Origin: Planctomycetota bacterium
GTDB lineage: Bacteria > Planctomycetota > Phycisphaerae > Sedimentisphaerales > Anaerobacaceae
Direction of reading: 5' to 3'
DNA length: 64,000 bases
Assembly: GCA_022566315.1 (NCBI GenBank)
Contig: JADFJC010000004.1
Location: 1 to 64,000 of the forward strand
Shown piece by piece: positions 16,020 to 63,333 of this stretch; position 1 is the stretch's first letter, and each line of letters starts with the position of its first letter. A model generated the notes under the pieces. It was given only the letters and a program-made list of their open reading frames with translations, did no database searches and had not been told where the DNA came from. Position numbers and translations under genes: made by a program.

Positions 16020-16424
16020 TTAGTCTCCGGCGGTTTCTATTTTGTGCAGATGAGCCAAATAAACGGCGTTTACAATGCACAAAAGGTTGAGCAAACCTGC
16101 GATGCTGGTGTATATCTGTCCTATTTCATTCGGTCTGCCAAAGACGGGATAGTATCCTTTCGTGGCCCAGTACCCCAAAACCGCGACAATCGGCGAATTC
16201 ATAATTTGTGCCACATACCACGGCTTTGCCCCGACAGGATTGATAATTCCTATTGAGCCGACGTATAAGCCTGCGCAGAAGGTCAGGACGATAGTTGCGG
16301 ATATAATAAGAGCGCGTTTTTTTTCCTTTATCAGGAAATGTCCGGCGCCCGGGATGAGCCAGGCGAGCAGTCCGACGGTCAGCAGAAACAGTTTATGTTT
16401 TTTTTTCGAGCGTGGTGCCGTCAC
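16020..16424 (-). CDS. DUF6677-like membrane protein
   Basis: 134 residues with about four hydrophobic segments. The N terminus after a basic stretch (RSKKKHK) reads LLAWLIPGAGHFLIKEKKRA, the P-G-x-G-H type hairpin seen in small TM2/DUF6677-like proteins of Planctomycetes (family name from memory). It overlaps the SurA-like gene by 4 bp (ATGA-type coupling) and is followed 1 bp later by the 83-residue membrane protein. A link to envelope biogenesis is inferred from the operon. Confidence 0.65.
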   Translation of the reverse strand: MTAPRSKKKHKLFLLTVGLLAWLIPGAGHFLIKEKKRALIISATIVLTFCAGLYVGSIGIINPVGAKPWYVAQIMNSPIVAVLGYWATKGYYPVFGRPNEIGQIYTSIAGLLNLLCIVNAVYLAHLHKIETAGD

Positions 16425-18817
16425 GATGCTGCCTCCGATTCTGCGGGTGTATTAGGCTCCGACGATTCTTCATCAGCCTCCGATACCGATAGCCTAAAGT
16501 TCATACGTTTTAATATATTTTCGGGATTAAAGTGGACCGCCGCCATGGTCTCGGATTGAACATAATCTTCTCTTTGTAATCGCGTTACTTTGATTCGTTC
16601 GTACTCCTGGAGGGTAAGGCGTTTAACAGAAATATTTTTTATACAATAGAAGCTCATACCCGGCTTGAACTCCATAACCAGAGGGACGGTGTCAACAGTG
16701 TTGCTGTCCTGCGGTACGAGCGAATAAAGCTGCTCTACGAAGCGGCGCTGGTTCTTACGCCCGTTCAGGAAGAGCTGTGCCGTCGGGTTGCCTGCAGTTT
16801 GCACAGTCAGAGTTTGTATTGTCGCTCTTGATATTCTTCGCAGGCCTGTAAGATTTTGCAGCTTGAAGGGTTTGGTGGCGTTTTGTTCGGCATTTGTGGT
16901 CCCGGAGGTGTTAGGGTCGTTTTGGTCCTGGCTGTTTTGCTGTCCGTAGAGTTCGTTAAATTTATCAAGAGCGCTGTCCCAGCCGTCTTTTACCGCCAGG
17001 TCAATGAACTCTTCGGCCTTGCTTTTTGTGGTCTCTATTGCAGCGAGTTTCTTTAAGTCTTCGGTAACTTTTTCTCTTACCGAATAAATATTTTCGTCTG
17101 TATCTTGGCCTTCGGCTCCGCTCAGGGCAGAAGACTGGTTTGGGTCGAATTCAAGTGCGCTTGTACTAAAGGTTTGGTTAAGGCTTTCTGGTTCGGCGGC
17201 TTTTATGGCTTTAATCACTCGAACAACGGCCATTATTTGTCCGGAGGTGTCCTGGAGTCCACTCCAGGCCGTCCCCCACAGGTCTTTGAGGGGGCCGATA
17301 TTTTCATACATTCCGGGCTTCGGCACATCAAAGGGCCCAAGTTCACTGGCGGCTAAATCATCGACGGCAAAAACAATTCGTTGTCTCAGCGGTGAGTTCG
17401 GGTCATTCGGGTCGGATGGCACTTGCTCATCGACGGCAAAAACAATCTGAGTCAATGAGACCGGATTTCGCCCTTGGCCCTCTAAATACAACCTTGTAAG
17501 ATATTCATTTGTCTGCATATCGATTGAGCTAAGCAGCCCAGTTTGGCCTGCATATATCTTGATATTGTGCTTTTTGCTTAAATCCTCGGCGGTGGTTTGA
17601 TAATCGCCGGCCATCTCCTTAAACTGTTCGGCAGTCAGATTCACAGGCTCTATGTCGGTGCTTTCCGGAGAGGGTTCGGTAATTGTTTTGGCCTCCTGCA
17701 GTATTCTATTTGCTGTGGAATTTATTTTGCTGTTCATAAGCCGTTGTGAAATGGTATCTGTAACCTCGGCATAGCTTTTAATTCGTTGGGTCGGCTGTGA
17801 GTTCGGGTCATTCGGGTCGGATGGCAATTGCTCGGTGAATAACTGTTCTCTATATCTTTGGTAATAATCTTCCTTCTCCTGGTTAGTGGGGGGCGTTATT
17901 ATCGTCCGAACATCGTCGAGCCTGACGACCACGTATTCAAGCTGGACTCTGTCCGGCAGCTTATATCCGAAGCCGTAGGGATTTTCATCGCTTACGTTGG
18001 AAGGCAAGAATTTCTTGTATTTGTCAAAATGTCCCTTCTCGACGCTCGATACTGGATTCTCGATGCTCGATGCAAACACAGCGGAATCGAATTCCACCAC
18101 TTCAACGTCAAGGCTTTCTTGCTCGGTGGCGACAGCCTGGGTTATCTGTGAGCTTGTAACATCTTCGTTTAAGCAAATCAACTGGGCGTACTGCATTACG
18201 GCTAACAATTGGCTGAATATTGTCAGGAGCTGCTCCTGCGGGAGGCCGTATTGGTTTATTAGAAATCCAATTCGCTGCGAGTATGTCTGGCCGTTGAAAA
18301 GCTGTGGTATTACTTTTCCGAGCAGTTCGCCGGCCTGCTCGTTTGGCACCCTGATGCCTGCGAGCTGTGCTTCGTTTTTCAGTAACATCCAGTATATACT
18401 GGATGGCACTGAGCGTCTGTATATATCGTTGATTTGTTTGTCACTGATTCTGTACTGGTATGTTCTGATCGTTTGCTTTATACGGTTGATAAGTGCGGGC
18501 GAAGTTTGCTGCTCTGCAAACAGCAGTTCGCCTAAGAAAATCCCCCGTAAGTCCTGGTTCCTTAGCAGGACATTTGCCTGGAGCGCTCTGAGGACATCCA
18601 GTTCCCGTCGTGCCAGGGATAAATCGTCGTCTGTTATTTTCCTGTTATCTGCGAACTCTGCCACCGTCCTGTGCAGCCCAGCTCTTCTTTGACTGAGTTG
18701 TGAAATATACGAGCCTCCCACAAAGCCGACCATAATAACGATGACCACAACAGCCATCACTTTTTTGTTATTTTTTCGAAACCACTTGACTAAATTCATA
18801 TATTTACTCCGAATCAA
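16421..18817 (-). CDS. Large SurA/PpiD N-terminal-like periplasmic protein
   Basis: Probable membrane-anchored folding factor of 798 residues. A basic start (MNLVKWFRKNNKK) precedes one transmembrane helix (VMAVVVIVIMVGFVGGSYI), then a long periplasmic part with a SurA-type N-terminal helical region (about 50-250; FADNRKITDDDLSLARRELD resembles the SurA_N entry). I see no clear parvulin catalytic domain. Low-complexity SDPNDPNS-QRI segments occur twice. Two repeat-derived insertions are visible: SSIENPVSSVEKG (DNA 18037-18073) and a tandem copy of IVFAVD flanking one SDPNDPNS segment (DNA 17358-17446). The start could be Met1 or Met7. It leads the operon with the two small membrane genes. Confidence 0.7.
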   Translation of the reverse strand: MIRSKYMNLVKWFRKNNKKVMAVVVIVIMVGFVGGSYISQLSQRRAGLHRTVAEFADNRKITDDDLSLARRELDVLRALQANVLLRNQDLRGIFLGELLFAEQQTSPALINRIKQTIRTYQYRISDKQINDIYRRSVPSSIYWMLLKNEAQLAGIRVPNEQAGELLGKVIPQLFNGQTYSQRIGFLINQYGLPQEQLLTIFSQLLAVMQYAQLICLNEDVTSSQITQAVATEQESLDVEVVEFDSAVFASSIENPVSSVEKGHFDKYKKFLPSNVSDENPYGFGYKLPDRVQLEYVVVRLDDVRTIITPPTNQEKEDYYQRYREQLFTEQLPSDPNDPNSQPTQRIKSYAEVTDTISQRLMNSKINSTANRILQEAKTITEPSPESTDIEPVNLTAEQFKEMAGDYQTTAEDLSKKHNIKIYAGQTGLLSSIDMQTNEYLTRLYLEGQGRNPVSLTQIVFAVDEQVPSDPNDPNSPLRQRIVFAVDDLAASELGPFDVPKPGMYENIGPLKDLWGTAWSGLQDTSGQIMAVVRVIKAIKAAEPESLNQTFSTSALEFDPNQSSALSGAEGQDTDENIYSVREKVTEDLKKLAAIETTKSKAEEFIDLAVKDGWDSALDKFNELYGQQNSQDQNDPNTSGTTNAEQNATKPFKLQNLTGLRRISRATIQTLTVQTAGNPTAQLFLNGRKNQRRFVEQLYSLVPQDSNTVDTVPLVMEFKPGMSFYCIKNISVKRLTLQEYERIKVTRLQREDYVQSETMAAVHFNPENILKRMNFRLSVSEADEESSEPNTPAESEAAS
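17358..17446. repeat. 20-bp direct repeat bounding an in-frame 69-bp segment
   Basis: TCATCGACGGCAAAAACAAT occurs at 17358-17377 and 17427-17446, an offset of 69 bp (23 codons). The enclosed codons specify the VPSDPNDPNSPLRQR segment, which resembles a second copy encoded near 17780-17830. This looks like an in-frame tandem duplication. Confidence 0.85.
18037..18073. repeat. TCGATACTGGATTCTCGATG word repeat inside the SurA-like gene
   Basis: A run of CTCGACGCTCGATACTGGAT and related words, same family as those inside hemL and murE. On the coding strand it reads as SSIENPVSSVE. Confidence 0.85.
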
Positions 18818-18920
18818 GTTCTAAAACCCCGTCAGTTTAGCAAATCGCACAGACATTGCAAGAAAAATAGCCTCCGCCGGCCTGTTTAAAAGTTTTGTGG
18901 CTGCAGCTTATACAAATAGT

Positions 18921-18949: not shown

Positions 18950-18959
18950 TTAAACTCAG

Positions 18960-20297
18960 ATGATGGACGAACGAAGCAAATATAACAAATCGGCACAGGC
19001 CTTTGCTGAGGCATGTAATTATGTGCCAGGCGGTGTAAATTCGCCGGTGCGGGCCTTCGGGGGTGTTGATATTGGTCCTGTTTTCATTGCCGGTGCAAAA
19101 GGTTCAAAAATCTACGATATTGACGGCAATGAGTACATAGACTACGTCGGCTCGTGGGGCCCGATGATACTCGGACACGCCCATCCGAAAGTGTTGAAGG
19201 CTATTGTTACAGCGTCGCAGAAGGGCACATCATTCGGGGCGCCGACATTGGCTGAGACCGCCTTAGCTAAGAAAATAATCGCCGCTTTCGATTCCATTGA
19301 GAAGGTCCGGCTGGTAAGCAGCGGCACAGAGGCGGTAATGACCGCTATCCGGCTGGTTCGTGGATATACGAAAAAGGATTTAATAATCAAGATGGCCGGC
19401 TGTTATCACGGGCACAGCGATTCGTTGCTGGTGGCTGCGGGTTCCGGCCTTGCCGAGGGTGCCATCGCTTCGAGTGGGGGCGTTCCTGATTCGATTGCAA
19501 AGTTGACCATCATAATTGACTATAACGATATTGAGGCGGTAACAAGGGCATTCCAAATGTACAAGGGGAAAATCGCGGCGGTTCTGGTTGAGCCTGTCGC
19601 CGCAAATATGGGCGTGGTGCCGCCGATTGATGGGTACTTGCAGGCGATGCGGAATTTGTGCGACCAGAACGATTCGCTTTTGATATTTGACGAAGTAATA
19701 ACCGGTTTTCGCTTAGCTCTCGGGGGAGCGCAGGAGCTTTTCGGAGTCAAAGCTGATATAACCTGTTTAGGCAAGATAATAGGAGGGGGCCTGCCCGCAG
19801 CGGCACTTGGCGGTCGAGCCGATATTATGGACATGCTCGCTCCGCTCGGGCCGGTCTATCAGGCAGGAACACTCAGTGGTAATCCACTCGCTACCGCGGC
19901 AGCAAATGCTACACTGGACATACTCGATACTCGATGCTGGATGCTTGATTCTCGACGAGTATCGAGTTACGAGTATCTGGAATCGAGAACAGCCCTGCTG
20001 GAAGCCGGTCTGGCTGATGCCGCTAAAGAGGCCGATATTGCCGTTACAATTAATCGCCTCGGCTCGATTATGAGTTGTTTCTTCACCGGCAAGCCGGTAC
20101 AAAACTTTGCCGATGTTCAGTCAACCGATATAAAACGGTTCAAGAAATTCTTCGCCCGGATGTTAGAGCAGGGGATTTATCTTGCACCAAGCGCTTATGA
20201 GGCGATGTTTGTTTCGTTAGCTCACAGCAAAGCGGACATTGAGAAGACTATTGAAGCAGCAAAAAATAGTTTCCAAAGGATAAAAGATGAGAAATAG
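18960..20297 (+). CDS. hemL: Glutamate-1-semialdehyde 2,1-aminomutase with repeat insertion
   Basis: PLP enzyme making 5-aminolevulinate for tetrapyrroles by the C5 pathway. Signatures are YVPGGVNSPVRAF near the N terminus, GTEAVMTAIRLVRG, YHGHSD, the cofactor Asp in LIFDEVITGFR, the catalytic Lys in TCLGKIIGGGLP (about residue 270) and NPLATAAA. After NPLATAAANATLDI the family normally goes straight into the helix before RTALLEAGL; here about a dozen extra residues (LDTRCWMLDSRRVSSYEYLE) are encoded by a TCGATGCTGGATGC-type repeat, in frame. No other heme genes are adjacent. Confidence 0.95.
   Translation: MMDERSKYNKSAQAFAEACNYVPGGVNSPVRAFGGVDIGPVFIAGAKGSKIYDIDGNEYIDYVGSWGPMILGHAHPKVLKAIVTASQKGTSFGAPTLAETALAKKIIAAFDSIEKVRLVSSGTEAVMTAIRLVRGYTKKDLIIKMAGCYHGHSDSLLVAAGSGLAEGAIASSGGVPDSIAKLTIIIDYNDIEAVTRAFQMYKGKIAAVLVEPVAANMGVVPPIDGYLQAMRNLCDQNDSLLIFDEVITGFRLALGGAQELFGVKADITCLGKIIGGGLPAAALGGRADIMDMLAPLGPVYQAGTLSGNPLATAAANATLDILDTRCWMLDSRRVSSYEYLESRTALLEAGLADAAKEADIAVTINRLGSIMSCFFTGKPVQNFADVQSTDIKRFKKFFARMLEQGIYLAPSAYEAMFVSLAHSKADIEKTIEAAKNSFQRIKDEK
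19921..19986. repeat. Palindromic TCGATACTCGATGC word repeat inside hemL
   Basis: Tandem TACTCGATACTCGATGCTGG type words followed by an inverted arm (GATACTCG opposed to CGAGTATC). Fully inside the reading frame without breaking it. Confidence 0.88.
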
Positions 20298-30434: not shown

Positions 30435-30530
30435 AAGTGAACCAAAGTGACTAAAGTGCTTAAAATCTAACACACTTAATTCTAATAACTTTAGGCATTT
30501 TAGCTCACTTTAGGCACTTTGAACTTTTGA
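30435..30530. repeat. AAAGTGACTAAAGTG / CACTTTAGGCACTTT inverted repeat
   Basis: Left arm words AAAGTGAACCAAAGTGACTA, right arm words TTTAGCTCACTTTAGGCACT. Same family as 25880-26037 and 40988-41086. Located between tRNA-Leu and the citrate-synthase-like gene, so it may act on the RNA as a hairpin. Confidence 0.75.
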
Positions 30531-35973: not shown

Positions 35974-36119
35974 TTTCAATCAAAAACGCTGATACCTCAG
36001 AGCAAAAATTAAATTTTTCATAAATTTTTATCTTCCTTTTCCAAAACGAGTTACGAGCGACGAGCGACGAGAAACGGTTATATTTTCGCATCAAACGTGC
36101 AGGTAGCTCTAATTATAGA
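35974..36119 (-). repeat. 147-bp dispersed element, copy B (inverted)
   Basis: Inverted homologue of 3885-4032. Its ends match exactly (24 nt at the AGGTATCAGCG end, 23 nt at the CTACCTGCAC end) and its diverged interior is of equal length. Its middle additionally carries GTCGCTCGTCGCTCG words. Confidence 0.75.
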
Positions 36120-36375
36120 GGCCCTACTTTTTTCGCCTCCGGCAAAAAGCATTATCTGTCAAGCCAGACAAGGTTTTGAACATTTAATTTTGTGTAATTT
36201 GGATTCTTGCCCGCCTCAGGCGGGTGAATTTAGGATTTAGTGCTTAGGATTTCGGATTTATGTTTCTAAAGAGTAGCAACTGTCATCTGTCGTCTGTCGT
36301 CCGTCTTCTGTCGTCTGTCTTCTGCCCTCGCCCCTCTACATCTGTCGAGAGTTCTCTACAAATCAGCTACTTTTT

Positions 36376-44908: not shown

Positions 44909-45235
44909 ATGGTCAAGGATTTTGAAATCATTGGTGATATTAAATCGGACACACAACGTTACGTTCTGTGCGTTAGCAACGAGAACTATTCTGCGTCAAT
45001 CGAAGCACGTAAGATATATCAGTGCGTTCCAGACCTTCAAGCTGAAGCTCATGGGCAGGTCCGGGTTATTGATGAGCCGGGAAAAGATTACCTTTATCCC
45101 CGGGGTCTTTTCCTTTTCATCGAGATTCCGAAAGAAGCCATACGAGCATTTGCGCAGGAGTCGTATAGGATACGAAATAAGACAGTTTTTTACCTATTCG
45201 AGAATTTCTGCCCGCACCGTGATGTTCTGCAATAG
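44909..45235 (+). CDS. Small protein of unknown function, first gene of the island
   Basis: 108 residues, not recognised. Soluble, mixed charged, with strands KDFEIIGDIKSDTQRYVLCVS and GLFLFIEIPKEAIRAFAQES, ending FENFCPHRDVLQ. It heads a compact operon (gaps of 11 and 17 bp) with a DUF4258 protein and a YgiT-type zinc-finger protein, so it may be a third component of a toxin-antitoxin-like unit. The ATG is appropriate for leaderless translation from the promoter at 44873. Confidence 0.65.
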   Translation: MVKDFEIIGDIKSDTQRYVLCVSNENYSASIEARKIYQCVPDLQAEAHGQVRVIDEPGKDYLYPRGLFLFIEIPKEAIRAFAQESYRIRNKTVFYLFENFCPHRDVLQ

Positions 45236-45246
45236 GGGAACAAGAC

Positions 45247-45528
45247 ATGTTCGGCCGAATTTTGAACCGTATGCGAGAAAAAATTCGCAAGCGTCAGTAT
45301 ATTATGACGTACCATGCCAGACGAGAGATGCATCATGATGATTTAACTATTTATGATATCGAACGAGTAATCCTTACAGGAAAGATACTCGAACGTCAAA
45401 AAGATATAGCAACTGGTGAATGGAAATACCGTATCGCAGGCAAAACAGTTGAAAGCGGCAAAATCGAAGTGGTTGCAAAGTTAAGTCCAACCGGCAAACT
45501 GGTTATTATTACCATATATGCACTATAA
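45247..45528 (+). CDS. DUF4258-family protein, putative toxin of a type II-like module
   Basis: 93 residues. DUF4258 proteins have a BECR-like small nuclease fold and commonly pair with a YgiT/MqsA-type zinc-finger antitoxin. The pattern is YIMTYHARREMHHDDLTIYDIERVI then GKILERQKD, WKYRIAGKT and a final VVAKLSPTGKLVIITIYAL, which is the DUF4258 layout (H-A-x3-M-x-x-D-x-I). The gene has GGGGAACAAG upstream and lies 17 bp before its presumed antitoxin. Confidence 0.82.
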   Translation: MFGRILNRMREKIRKRQYIMTYHARREMHHDDLTIYDIERVILTGKILERQKDIATGEWKYRIAGKTVESGKIEVVAKLSPTGKLVIITIYAL

Positions 45529-45545
45529 GAATAAGGACAAGACAA

Positions 45546-45773
45546 ATGATATGTGATATTTGTGGACATAAGGGAGCACATGCTCGTAGAGTTGCCGAAA
45601 CCTACGGCAAAGGAAGGAATTTACTGGTAATAGAAAACATCCCTATGGTCAGTTGCCCTTATTGTGGGCAAAGTTACTTTACAGCAGAAACACTCCATGA
45701 AATAGAGCGTATTAAACTCCATCATAAGAGCTTTGCCGTTGAACGTCCTGTGGAAGTCGCCAAGTTTGGGTAA
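45546..45773 (+). CDS. YgiT/MqsA-type zinc-finger antitoxin
   Basis: 75-residue protein whose two Cys pairs (MICDICGHKG and VSCPYCGQSYF) form the zinc-binding N-terminal domain of YgiT/MqsA antitoxins. Between them comes the typical VIENIPMVSC strand. It ends with a short helix region (LHEIERIKLHHKSFAVERPVEVAKF) and lacks the C-terminal helix-turn-helix of full MqsA. Third gene of the leaderless operon, so it would neutralise the DUF4258 product. Confidence 0.83.
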   Translation: MICDICGHKGAHARRVAETYGKGRNLLVIENIPMVSCPYCGQSYFTAETLHEIERIKLHHKSFAVERPVEVAKFG

Positions 45774-46038: not shown

Positions 46039-47604
46039 CTATTTCCCGAGCAGTCTATTTCTTTGTTTCTTAAGGCATTTCTGAGCGATTTGCTTGTCAC
46101 TGAAATCGAATTTTTGCGTTCCGATTATCTGATAGGTTTCGTGGCCTTTGCCTGCTATGAGCACGATATCGTCCTTTTCGGCGGATTCTATTGCCAACTC
46201 GATGGCCTTTTTTCTGTCCGGCTCAATTATAATCTCGATGCTGGATGCTGGATTCTCGATACTCGTCGAAAAAGAGAATCGAGAAGCGAAGCCGGCGACA
46301 ATTTCATCTATGATGTCTTCGGGTTTTTCAGTTCGAGGGTTGTCGCTGGTAACGATTATAAAATCAGCTAACTGTTCAGCGACCCTTGCCATGCGTGGGC
46401 GCTTGGTTCTGTCCCTGTCTCCGCCGCAGCCGAAAACGACCCGCAAGTTACCCTTGCACAGAGGCTTTAGTGTCGAGAGGACATTTTTTAAGGCGTCGTC
46501 GGTGTGAGCGTAATCGACCAGCACCGAAAAATCACCCGGCCAATCGATTTTTTCTAATCGGCCTGGTATTGTTTGCAAAGCTGATAAACCGGCTGCTATC
46601 GTTTTTAAATCGAAGCCGGCTGCAAGACACAGGCCGGCTGCCGCTAAAGAATTGCTGACGTTATATCGGCCAAGCAAGGGAGTCCTCACTTCGATGCTCG
46701 ATGCTCGATGCTCGATACTCGGCGAGCATCTGGTATCTAATATCGAGTATCGAGTTCCGCTCATATCCATCGACTCGATATGGGCGGTGATGTCCGCCGG
46801 CTCGTCAATGGCATACCATAAGATATTGGCTTGGGTTTGCTTAGCGATAAGCTCGGCCTGCGGCGATTGTTTATTCAACACCGCCACAGCATCCGGGGAA
46901 AGAGTAGAAAAAAGTCTGGTTTTGGCAGCTAAGTAATCTTCTTCGGTTTTATGATAGTCCAGATGGTCGCCGGCGAGGTTAGTGAAAGCGGCGGCTTTGA
47001 AGTTGACTGCGGCCAGGCGGTTTTGAGAAAGGGCGTGGCTGCTGGCCTCGATGACCATATACTTTGCGCCGTTTTTTAGCATTTGCTCTTGTCCGGCGGC
47101 AATAGTCAGGCAATCTGGTGTTGTCAAAGATGCTTGTCTGCTATCCCCGGAGCAGGTATCGTAAATGACGGTGCCGATAAGGCCGCACTTCTGGCCTGCC
47201 TTCTGGATACAGGAGCGTACCAGATAGGCAACGGTAGTCTTGCCGTTTGTGCCGGTAACCGCGAGGTTCGTTAATTGCGAAGCCGGTTTGCCCCTGCCTG
47301 CCTGTGCCAGGAGTGCTGCCGCTTCTGCGGAATCGTCAACAACTATGGTCTCGATACTCAATGCTCGATGCTTGAGGCTGCCACCCGTTGTCTGTCTTCT
47401 GTCCTCTATCCTCTGTCCTCTATCCTTTTGGCACACGATATATTCGGCGCCGTTTGCAAGGGCCTGGTCGATGAAATCGTGGCCGTCGTAAACAGTACCT
47501 TCAACAGCCACAAAGATATCACCGTTCCCGATGGCACGCGAATCCACACAAATACTCGGCGCGTTGTCCGAAGAAACCAGGTTTAGCAACTCATCAAAAT
47601 TCAT
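46039..47604 (-). CDS. murE: UDP-N-acetylmuramoyl-tripeptide synthase MurE with three repeat insertions
   Basis: Adds the third amino acid of the peptidoglycan stem. Signatures are ICVDSRAIGNGDIFVAVEG, ATP loop AVTGTNGKTTVAYLVRS (about 114), TTPDCL, NLAGDHLDYHKTEEDY, VDYAHTDDALKNVL and VTSDNPRTEKPEDII; D-N-P-R indicates meso-diaminopimelate. The protein is intact but carries three odd segments that match intergenic repeats: DRGQRIEDRRQTTGGSLKHR (about residues 61-85), YSILDTRCSPSIEHRASSIE (about 284-305) and STSIENPASSIEI (about 445-458). Each falls where Mur ligases have surface loops. murE, the island, murF and mraY follow in that order. Confidence 0.95.
   Translation of the reverse strand: MNFDELLNLVSSDNAPSICVDSRAIGNGDIFVAVEGTVYDGHDFIDQALANGAEYIVCQKDRGQRIEDRRQTTGGSLKHRALSIETIVVDDSAEAAALLAQAGRGKPASQLTNLAVTGTNGKTTVAYLVRSCIQKAGQKCGLIGTVIYDTCSGDSRQASLTTPDCLTIAAGQEQMLKNGAKYMVIEASSHALSQNRLAAVNFKAAAFTNLAGDHLDYHKTEEDYLAAKTRLFSTLSPDAVAVLNKQSPQAELIAKQTQANILWYAIDEPADITAHIESMDMSGTRYSILDTRCSPSIEHRASSIEVRTPLLGRYNVSNSLAAAGLCLAAGFDLKTIAAGLSALQTIPGRLEKIDWPGDFSVLVDYAHTDDALKNVLSTLKPLCKGNLRVVFGCGGDRDRTKRPRMARVAEQLADFIIVTSDNPRTEKPEDIIDEIVAGFASRFSFSTSIENPASSIEIIIEPDRKKAIELAIESAEKDDIVLIAGKGHETYQIIGTQKFDFSDKQIAQKCLKKQRNRLLGK
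46232..46287. repeat. TCGATGCTGGATGC word repeat inside murE, site 3
   Basis: TCTCGATGCTGGATGCTGGA words followed by an inverted arm (GATTCTCGATACTCG against GAGAATCGAGAAG). Reads as FSTSIENPASSIEI on the coding strand and keeps the frame. Confidence 0.85.
46690..46756. repeat. TCGATGCTCGATACTCG palindromic repeat inside murE, site 2
   Basis: Three CGATGCT words, then CTCGATACTC opposed to GAGTATCGAG about 24 nt later, a clear stem. Same family as the hemL insertion. Confidence 0.88.
47350..47430. repeat. Compound word repeat inside murE, site 1
   Basis: TCGATACTCAATGCTCGATG words joined to CTGTCTTCTGTCCTCTATCC words. The second type also occurs free in the gene-free zone at 36285-36335. 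Reads as DRGQRIEDRRQTTGG-SLKHRALSIE on the coding strand. Confidence 0.85.
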
Positions 47605-53301: not shown

Positions 53302-53757
53302 CTAAATATTATTTTTATGGCCTTGCACGTATTTTATTCTTTGCTCCAAGGTCGTTCTGTCGAAACAAAATCTTTTGTCGTATCCATTTGTCCAGAGTCT
53401 GCCATTATGGCCCAAAGCTTTCAGCGCGAGTCGCGCAGCCTTCTTGTAATAAGCAACAATCTTACTTATTGGTTGTGGAACATATTGTGCAACCACGTGG
53501 ACATGCGTTGGATGCACAGCTAACGCATATATGCGTTGACCTTGTGATGCTGCTTCCTCAGTGATGGCTTTTCGCACCACTTGTTGTTGAGCTTTTGATA
53601 ATCGAACTGCATCTTGCAGTTGTGCTCGTTTATTAGTTTGCATCAAGTCTTTGTTTCCGGGATAAATTCTGCCGTTTTTTACGTAGCCGCGTTCGTCACC
53701 CTGCAGCCAGGTTCCGTAAGTTGTTCAGGTAATCATATATCCTAATGTTTTCGCCAT
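53302..53757 (-). pseudogene. REP-associated tyrosine transposase (Y1/IS200-like) with in-frame TGA
   Basis: Y1-type HUH transposase of the RAYT group. The full frame from the ATG at 53757 reads MAKTLGYMIT, then TGA (complement 53725-53727), then TTYGTWLQGDERGYVKNGRI and on to the end. Relatives have Trp at the TGA position (ITWTTYGTWLQGD, from memory), so a TGG-to-TGA nonsense change explains it. After it the HUH motif HPTHVHVVAQY and the YYKKAARLALKALGHNGRLW and YDKRFCFD regions are intact. Other genes here end with TGA, so it is not a Trp codon in this organism. Re-initiation at TTG/ATG 53646 would give a 114-residue fragment lacking the N-terminal strand. REP-like hairpins flank the gene. 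Confidence 0.85.
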
Positions 53758-62235: not shown

Positions 62236-63333
62236 GTGTTGAAGATCATTACATTGAGCATTGCAACAGTGGTTGTGCTGATAGGAGTTGAAAATCTTAT
62301 CGCTCAGGAAGGAACAGACGAGCCTCAAACAGAGCCAAGACAAAGGCAGGTGCAGGAAGGCCGACAAAGGCAAAGGGGCCGGATGGAACAGCCTCGCAGA
62401 CAACAAGTTGACCGCGAAGCGCAGGCCAAACGTGCCGAGGCCATGCAAATGAAGCGCCGGCAGGAGGCCCTGCAAAAGAAACGTCAGCAAGAAGCGGCCA
62501 AGAAAATCGAGGCAATGAGAAAGAAGCGTCAGCAAGGGGCGGCTAAGAAAGGCGCACCCAAAGCCAGAATAAGCCGTGAGCCGCAGCAAACTCGTCCAGG
62601 GCAAAATCGACCTATGCAACAGATGTTTGGCAGATGGTTGGAGGAGCTTACAAAGGCCTATCGCGACAACGACAGGCAAAAGATGGGACAATTACTCAGA
62701 AAGATGCAGCAACTGAGGCAAAAATCGCAGCAAGCAAGAACTACTGCTGGCCAGCGAGGTCCGGGCTTCCAAGACAGAGGTATGGGCGGATGGGGTCGAG
62801 GCTACCAAGGCAGAGGTATGATGGGTAGGGGCGGCCAAGGCTTCCAAGGCAGAGGTATGGGTGGATGGGGTCGAGGCTACCAGAGCAGAGGTATGATGGG
62901 CAGGGGCGGCCAAGGCTTCCAAGGCAGAGGTATGGGTGGATGGGGTCGAGGCTTCCAAGGCAGAGGTATGATGGGCCAAGGCGGAGGTATGACCAGTGGA
63001 AGGGACAGGGGTTTCCACCAAGGCAGGGGTATGGGCAGGTGGGATCCGGCTATGCCGCCACCTCCAGATGTGAGACCGTTCCCGCAGAGATCGCCCGAAG
63101 ATGTAATAAGGCCTGTGCCGCCAATGCAGCGTAGAGGCATGGGCAGATGGGAGCGAGACTTACCAGAGCCAAAGGAAGATGAAGATGTAGTCAGGCCGAT
63201 GCAACGTAGAGGTATGGGTGGTTGGGGCCAAGGCAGAGGTATGATGAACAGGGATGGGCAAGGTTTCTCGCCCAGAGGTATGAGCAGGCGGCCGAGGCCG
63301 AGATTCCCAGAACCAAAGCCGGAGAATGATTAG
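62236..63333 (+). CDS. Exported Gly/Arg/Met-rich repeat protein
   Basis: 365 residues, no enzyme domain. Signal peptide (IITLSIATVVVLIGVENLIAQ) from a GTG start with AAAGGAAC upstream. A basic, Gln/Arg/Lys-rich coiled region (about 30-115, KRRQEALQKKRQQEAAKKIE), then a short conserved segment (MFGRWLEELTKAYRDNDRQK). Three 25-residue tandem units GFQGRGMGGWGRGYQGRGMM-GRGGQ follow (DNA 62767-62991, 75 bp each). The tail has further RRGMG-WxR motifs and Pro/Arg. Likely an intrinsically disordered, RNA-, anion- or wall-binding envelope protein. Its signal is similar to that of the methyltransferase at 57252. Confidence 0.8.
   Translation: MLKIITLSIATVVVLIGVENLIAQEGTDEPQTEPRQRQVQEGRQRQRGRMEQPRRQQVDREAQAKRAEAMQMKRRQEALQKKRQQEAAKKIEAMRKKRQQGAAKKGAPKARISREPQQTRPGQNRPMQQMFGRWLEELTKAYRDNDRQKMGQLLRKMQQLRQKSQQARTTAGQRGPGFQDRGMGGWGRGYQGRGMMGRGGQGFQGRGMGGWGRGYQSRGMMGRGGQGFQGRGMGGWGRGFQGRGMMGQGGGMTSGRDRGFHQGRGMGRWDPAMPPPPDVRPFPQRSPEDVIRPVPPMQRRGMGRWERDLPEPKEDEDVVRPMQRRGMGGWGQGRGMMNRDGQGFSPRGMSRRPRPRFPEPKPEND
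62767..62991 (+). repeat. 75-bp tandem repeat, three units, inside the Gly/Arg-rich gene
   Basis: Each 75-bp unit encodes GFQ[GD]RGMGGWGRG[YF]Q then x-RGMMG and three or four more residues. Units 1 and 2 differ at few bases; unit 3 is more diverged (MMGQGGG). Confidence 0.9.

Follow-up and report, generated by a model that had tools for sequence, protein, structure and literature searches.

The murE gene of the window (the whole 64,000-nucleotide stretch of DNA that was analysed) is intact and carries three in-frame segments made of tandem seven-base words, and the same three loops of MurE bear arrays of other words in other species. Comparison of the sequences shows the segments to replace native loop residues rather than to be simple insertions. 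The gene and its segments are listed below by window position, with the nearest relative, G003 (murE 91% identical in protein and about 88.5% in DNA), as the point of comparison.

46039-47604, minus strand: murE, 521 amino acids, intact
47389..47426: murE site 1, part a; array of TCTGTCN / TCTATCC heptamers; residues 61-72; not in G003
47350..47377: murE site 1, part b; CTSGATN array; residues 78-85; a variant form also in G003
46690..46756: murE site 2; CTSGATN hairpin with both arms, from sequence comparison and DNA folding
46234..46284: murE site 3; CTSGATN array plus a partial second arm; common to this genome and G003

In terms of composition, the segments are built of CTSGATN words at sites 1-3 and of TCTGTCN words in addition at site 1, where S is C or G and CTSGATN reads CGAG-NAT on the other strand. 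An earlier, sequence-only reading of this DNA had already noted that the intact murE contains three in-frame segments derived from repeats, and the peptides that it quoted are matched exactly, with heptamer words beneath them: DRGQRIEDRRQTTGGSLKHR (residues 61-80, window 47365-47424), ILDTRCSPSIEHRASSIE (residues 288-305, window 46690-46743) and STSIENPASSIE (residues 446-457, window 46234-46269). Its account of their make-up is refined here, as site 1 joins two repeat types, site 2 is a two-armed hairpin and site 3 has a partial second arm. The window holds 12 CTSGATNCTSGAT pairs against a shuffle mean of 0.02, and CTSGATNCTSGATNCTSGAT has 225 matches (128+97) genome-wide against 0 for the reversed-pattern control; chance is thus excluded as the source of the words.

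The product of murE contains all three Pfam Mur ligase domains, as identified by domain search, and among solved structures E. coli MurE (1e8c) is the closest in fold. The first of the observations that the sequence-only reading had named as speaking against it was not made: related MurE proteins do not share the segments, their loops being different and usually shorter. A protein search of the genome revealed no second MurE, the other matches being paralogues of 25-28% identity, one of which is MurF. The AlphaFold model of MurE has a mean pLDDT of 88.6, and values below 50 are confined to residues 62-81, 294-299 and 444-453, which correspond to the three inserts; the low scores are partly expected because the alignment lacks homologues there. 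Site 2 forms the tip of a β-hairpin in this model (strands 283-290 and 303-308). The model supports placement of the inserts in loops, presumably at the surface, by which the sequence-only reading had taken them to be tolerated.

The interval between murE and murF (window 44909-45773) holds a small cassette on the opposite strand, which resembles a toxin-antitoxin-type unit inserted between two paired cell-wall genes:

44909-45235, opposite strand: hypothetical protein
45247-45528, opposite strand: DUF4258 protein
45546-45773, opposite strand: short CxxC protein, YgiT/MqsA-type antitoxin-like by eye

The replacement of native residues is visible in the loops themselves. At site 2, a conserved 12-residue β-hairpin tip (VFTLKYTHQSSI in G003) has become 21 residues, and the DNA of the two genomes matches up to GGAAC and rejoins shortly afterwards; at site 1 of the G002 murE, 13 native residues have become 14. 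The loops of hemL, a histidine kinase, an ispA-type gene, xerC and selB show native residues replaced in the same manner. The earlier description of the segments as insertions consequently stands in so far as they are repeat-derived and in frame, and gives way on the point of simple addition.

We aligned MurE from about 40 relatives, the named ones being metagenome assemblies of Phycisphaerae / Sedimentisphaerales (Planctomycetota). The closest named relative, JAUWBX010000030.1 (87% identity), and G003 appear to be one genome. A strict scan of 42 non-redundant murE genes detected 21 period-7 arrays in 12 species, and all 21 lie inside three loops, corresponding to residues 60-86, 284-307 and 448-459 of the MurE described here; the same genes gave no arrays at lags 4, 5, 10, 11 and 13 and one at lag 8. 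At least eight different, unrelated-looking words make up these arrays, with the same loops occupied in different species: CTSGATN in the window genome, G003, G014 and RBG_13_46_10, and CAATACG, GAGATAC, GAAGACA, GAGTCAC, CATCGTC, CACGACG, GCGACGA and CAGACGA among other relatives. In relatives free of arrays the native loops are short. On a MurE tree built without the loops, the word states require at least 8, 6 and 9 changes at sites 1, 2 and 3, respectively, counts that are approximate as the tree is a quick one with many weak branches. Sites 1b and 3 are older than the split from G003, and the site-2 hairpin and the TCTGTCN array of site 1 arose later. Repeat peptides of a non-heptamer kind also occur in or near MurE loops, namely VIPAQAGIQ (L018, murE site 1) and a GFQPMNKQ-like peptide (L031).

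All of the closely compared genomes are metagenome assemblies, and an assembly or binning artefact might be suspected on that ground. Assemblies made independently in different projects have arrays in these loops, always in frame, and site 3 is common to the window genome and G003, which makes such an artefact scarcely credible.

The process is not restricted to murE. Our genome sample comprised the window and 45 further stretches (389 kb), picked around CTSGATN matches and hence biased to CTSGATN loci. It contains 54 CTSGATN elements, about 20 of them in frame inside ORFs, where the sequence-only reading had proposed looking for the words. CTSGATN arrays fall within the Pfam domains of a class III aminotransferase, HATPase_c, a polyprenyl synthase, the XerC N-domain and RecO, and further in-frame arrays are found in genes for SelB, an AAA ATPase (moxR), a mannosyltransferase-like protein and others. 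Arrays given by position are:

18954-20294, plus strand: ORF for a class-III aminotransferase (hemL type), with a CTSGATN hairpin at 19921..19987, in frame, absent from four same-genus homologues
16424-18820, minus strand: ORF of 799 amino acids, with a CTSGATN array at 18036..18074, in frame, common to G003
36277..36327: TCTGTCN heptamer array, the word type of murE site 1a, elsewhere in the window
36046..36071: ACGAGNN heptamer array, in the window

Aligned same-genus homologues of hemL, the ispA-type gene, xerC, selB and an unnamed gene (L078) have native loops, some relatives lack the array in the histidine kinase, moxR and mlaA, and a sugar-transferase insert is present in G003 too. For most in-gene arrays at least one same-genus relative carries a native loop or different words. 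The loop of the mannosyltransferase-like protein has CTSGATN in the window genome, G002, G005 and G004, CGTATTG plus CACGACG in G003, and no array in G001, and the RecO loop bears three different repeats in three species; the peptide PVLSAVEG (L212), from a non-heptamer repeat, is also found in a RecO loop. These comparisons bear out the earlier claim of a spreading process, to which the word 'active' applies only over the time spanned by some 10% of DNA divergence. A coarse coding-score check of the elements not internal to ORFs turned up no conserved gene that was clearly broken; broken genes without known relatives would escape it.

An exact-lag tandem scan of the 389 kb yielded 73 arrays at lag 7 and 51 at lag 14, with 0-5 at each other lag from 4 to 15. 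The scan recovered 27 words, most of which differ from the word enriched by the sampling. We rejected selection for words that are open in every frame, as 12 of the 27 are stop-free on both strands compared with 47% of random heptamers. Separate observations in the window are a glycine-rich stretch encoded by a 36/75-bp tandem repeat (62764-62976) and clusters of ACTTTAGGC / CTTTAGCTC / GTTTAGC words, another repeat vocabulary, at 30488, 35750, 41046 and 63540.

The words are distributed unevenly among genomes. CTSGATN has 148 matches in the window genome, 105 in G003 and 1-20 in four other members of the genus; it is frequent in G128 and others of the family and missing from most of the order. 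Other words dominate elsewhere, with ACGAGNN found 136 times in G009 and CAATACG 27 times in G128 and 0 times in the window genome. Several of the words conform to the pattern CGAG plus three bases and may be dialects of one system. In one ACGAGNN array (G009:C23:9595-9667) the variable bases alternate between ACA and CGA, which gives a 14-base super-period.

Many elements are hairpins, in which a word array is followed by a centre, often CTCG[A/T]CGAG, and then by an inverted array. The 27 two-armed hairpins in the stretches of the window genome are all in the order '+ then -', with 0 reversed, and DNA folding of six elements gave z values of -1.2 to -6.5. Roughly half of the elements are one-armed or have unequal arms, the number of units is variable, and lengths run from about 20 to 95 bp with a common size of 51-65 bp. 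Within the word, positions 1, 2, 4, 5 and 6 are nearly constant, position 3 is C, G or T, and position 7 is A, T or G, with C rare (5/294). Palindromic 4-mers are strongly depleted in the 389 kb (CTAG 0.01, GATC 0.22, CATG 0.36 and GTAC 0.49 of expectation), and a C at position 7 would create GATC. The base at position 7 tends to repeat within an arm (adjacent identity 0.51 versus 0.33 expected) and avoids matching between arms (0.174 versus a permuted mean of 0.327, 0/3000; in G003, 0.182 versus 0.326, P = 0.008), so that mismatches interrupt the stem about once in every seven bases. Loss of perfect palindromes is a plausible origin of this arm mismatch rule.

One word pattern runs through the elements, whether coding or non-coding, yet judged by their units they do not appear to be copies of each other: runs of at least four identical consecutive units are shared by 1 pair of elements versus 2.8 expected under a Markov null, after removal of pairs with repeated flanks. 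Copy-and-paste from a recent donor element was rejected on this basis. Orthologous elements of the window genome and G003 differ in length by 7 or 14 bp and have other repeats nested in them; CCCAGCATCGCTGGG... and CTCCCTATGGGACACCTTAGGTGG repeats are nested in CTSGATN elements of one genome only (L155 of G003 versus L069 of the window genome; L239 versus L083). DNA comparisons with relatives reveal element ends that are variable rather than fixed, and no target-site duplication was seen by eye at the resolution that divergence allows. Some junctions coincide with word-like native sequence, such as ATACTCG in hemL of all four relatives, again by eye.

The uniform orientation of the 27 hairpins and the common size and centre would suit a palindromic element of the MITE/REP/RPE kind that is non-autonomous and depends for its movement on a transposase, for example of the Y1 (IS200/RAYT) type, with the in-gene copies being insertions filtered by selection. 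The four Y1_Tnp matches above cut-off in the genome and the amplification of the word in the window genome and G003 relative to the rest of the genus point the same way. Such an element is hard to reconcile with arms that are single or unequal in about half of cases, with variable unit numbers, with units that are not copied from element to element, with the replacement of native residues and the lack of a visible target-site duplication, or with the striking of the same loops by unrelated words, and the window's own Y1 gene has no array closer to it than about 500 bp. We consider this origin unlikely.

Homogeneous arms at position 7 and orthologues differing by whole units are what would be expected of purely local slippage, in which each loop grows its array from a chance seed of its own and loci exchange no sequence, and over-representation of heptamers is documented in many bacteria (PMC4692102, PMC6749651). 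Slippage of this kind would not place one word at about 100 or more sites per genome while leaving it nearly absent from close relatives, simple slippage cannot yield inverted second arms, and it adds sequence without replacing native codons; we regard it as quite improbable as a complete account.

The near-constancy of five of the seven word positions, with two left free, alike in coding and non-coding elements, could instead indicate that a DNA- or RNA-binding protein recognizes the words, or that they function as hairpins, with selection maintaining them and the in-gene copies being useful where they lie. Heptamer arrays have been proposed as regulatory sites in Beggiatoaceae (PMC4679880). 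Between the window genome and G003, divergence is 2.8% at the constant word positions, 10.5% at positions 3 and 7 and about 7.8% in the flanks, a hint of selection on the word itself from a small, hand-checked set in which unit detection favours conserved units. Against this, the word changes completely at the same loop between related species, the position of the elements relative to genes is not fixed, and Rfam searches of six scanned sources returned tRNAs only, with no family match to the arrays. That the words serve such a function is, in our judgement, very doubtful.

The observations can be rationalized if arrays of seven-base words are written over existing sequence throughout the genome by template switching and slippage, with the products filtered for reading frame and loop position, a proposal that we judge to have an even chance of being right. 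Such a process would overwrite short stretches, both intergenic and intragenic, using CGAG-NAT and several other words in the lineage of the window genome. Hairpin-prone word arrays would be the places where, during DNA synthesis or repair, short-homology template switching and slippage make the new sequence, and the template-switch mechanism, taken alone, is held less firmly than the description and mechanism together. Within genes, an event would survive only if it left the frame intact and struck a permissive loop, with the consequence that the same three MurE loops would be overwritten repeatedly, in each species with its own word. No transposase would be needed for the writing, and we infer that the proteins merely tolerate the inserted loops. 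Weighing on the other side, most of the empty-site comparisons use relatives that are 20-25% different in protein, which blurs the junctions, and junction homology was assessed by eye; no enzyme or donor for array writing was found in our searches, and no event was caught in progress. The lower divergence of the constant word positions, a hint of selection on the word, also counts against the proposal. A diversity-generating retroelement was dropped as the source, the sole RVT_1 match in the 92% complete genome looking by eye like a group II intron maturase-type protein. A more radical version is that a dedicated activity writes degenerate words de novo into the genomes of this family, each word with a constant core and one or two free positions, together with deliberately non-matching inverted arms, and continually rewrites the loops of essential enzymes in a dialect particular to each species; this we would treat as a long shot.

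Core proteins of free-living bacteria are here seen to gain loop sequence repeatedly from genomic word repeats, at the same loops in many species. The murE arrays amount to a replicated natural experiment on where an essential enzyme accepts arbitrary sequence in its loops. They also make the origin and spread of bacterial heptamer repeats amenable to comparative study, in which the arm mismatch rule and the apparent non-copy nature of the elements are constraints for any mechanism.

In terms of known systems, heptanucleotide repeats of bacteria include the cyanobacterial STRR and TAACTGA of Beggiatoaceae (PMC4679880), GGGNATC of Xanthomonas/Nostoc (PMC4692102) and GATAGRA of Chloroflexus (PMC6749651). 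The arrays described here resemble them in the seven-base unit, tandem and dispersed with few units per array, in lineage-specific words, as borne out by the lag-7 excess and the 27 words, and in occasional inverted pairs or ORF locations. These repeats are the precedent in structure. The known arrays are explicitly stated to be mainly intergenic or at the ORF periphery (PMC4679880), with insertions into ORFs described as succeeding mostly at the edge of the protein, whereas about 20 of the 54 elements sampled here are internal to ORFs, mid-protein in conserved enzymes and recurrently in the same loops. Two free word positions and an arm mismatch rule were not seen described for heptamer repeats. 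The CTSGATN word repeat was not found in a relevant context in the literature searched, nor, in that literature, which was mostly without subscription papers, was the combination of features with fixed-loop recurrence and changing words.

Other palindromic repeats offer partial parallels. The arrays are similar to REP/BIME-RAYT systems in being short, numerous and palindromic, with a Y1 transposase in the genome, but a REP structure with GTAG/CGTC tags was not identified, and the Y1 gene in the window has no array beside it. That gene (53323-53601, minus strand) is a Y1 (IS200-type) transposase-like ORF situated between short inverted CCCCCGGTNNNACCGGGGG-type repeats ('aaacccccggtgaaaccgggggc' and relatives), which are possibly a separate REP-like family. 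The precise insertion with target-site duplication and fixed ends that characterizes MITEs and transposons was not observed at the resolution set by divergence. PARCEL repeats (PMC2996958) are likewise palindromic DNA translated as protein and spread within and between genomes; these are amphipathic and form 25-residue tandem domains in proteins without assigned function, whereas the arrays here occupy single loops of core enzymes. The closest precedent in effect, cited in the sequence-only reading, is that of the Rickettsia palindromic elements (RPEs; Ogata et al. 2000, reviewed in PMC2229807 and PMC10969869), which are in-frame hairpin repeats in conserved genes. Like RPEs, the present elements are short repeats, some of them two-armed and capable of forming hairpins and others one-armed, that occur between genes and in frame in conserved protein genes (murE three times, hemL, the histidine kinase, the ispA-type gene, xerC, selB, recO, moxR and others), where they are tolerated. 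The analogy does not extend to membership: RPEs are units of 105-146 bp (about 150 bp) with a recognisable family sequence (PMC2229807), whereas the elements described here are degenerate heptamer arrays of about 20-95 bp that share only a word and a centre, are often one-armed, have no master copy, use many words and replace the native residues of the loops in which they lie.
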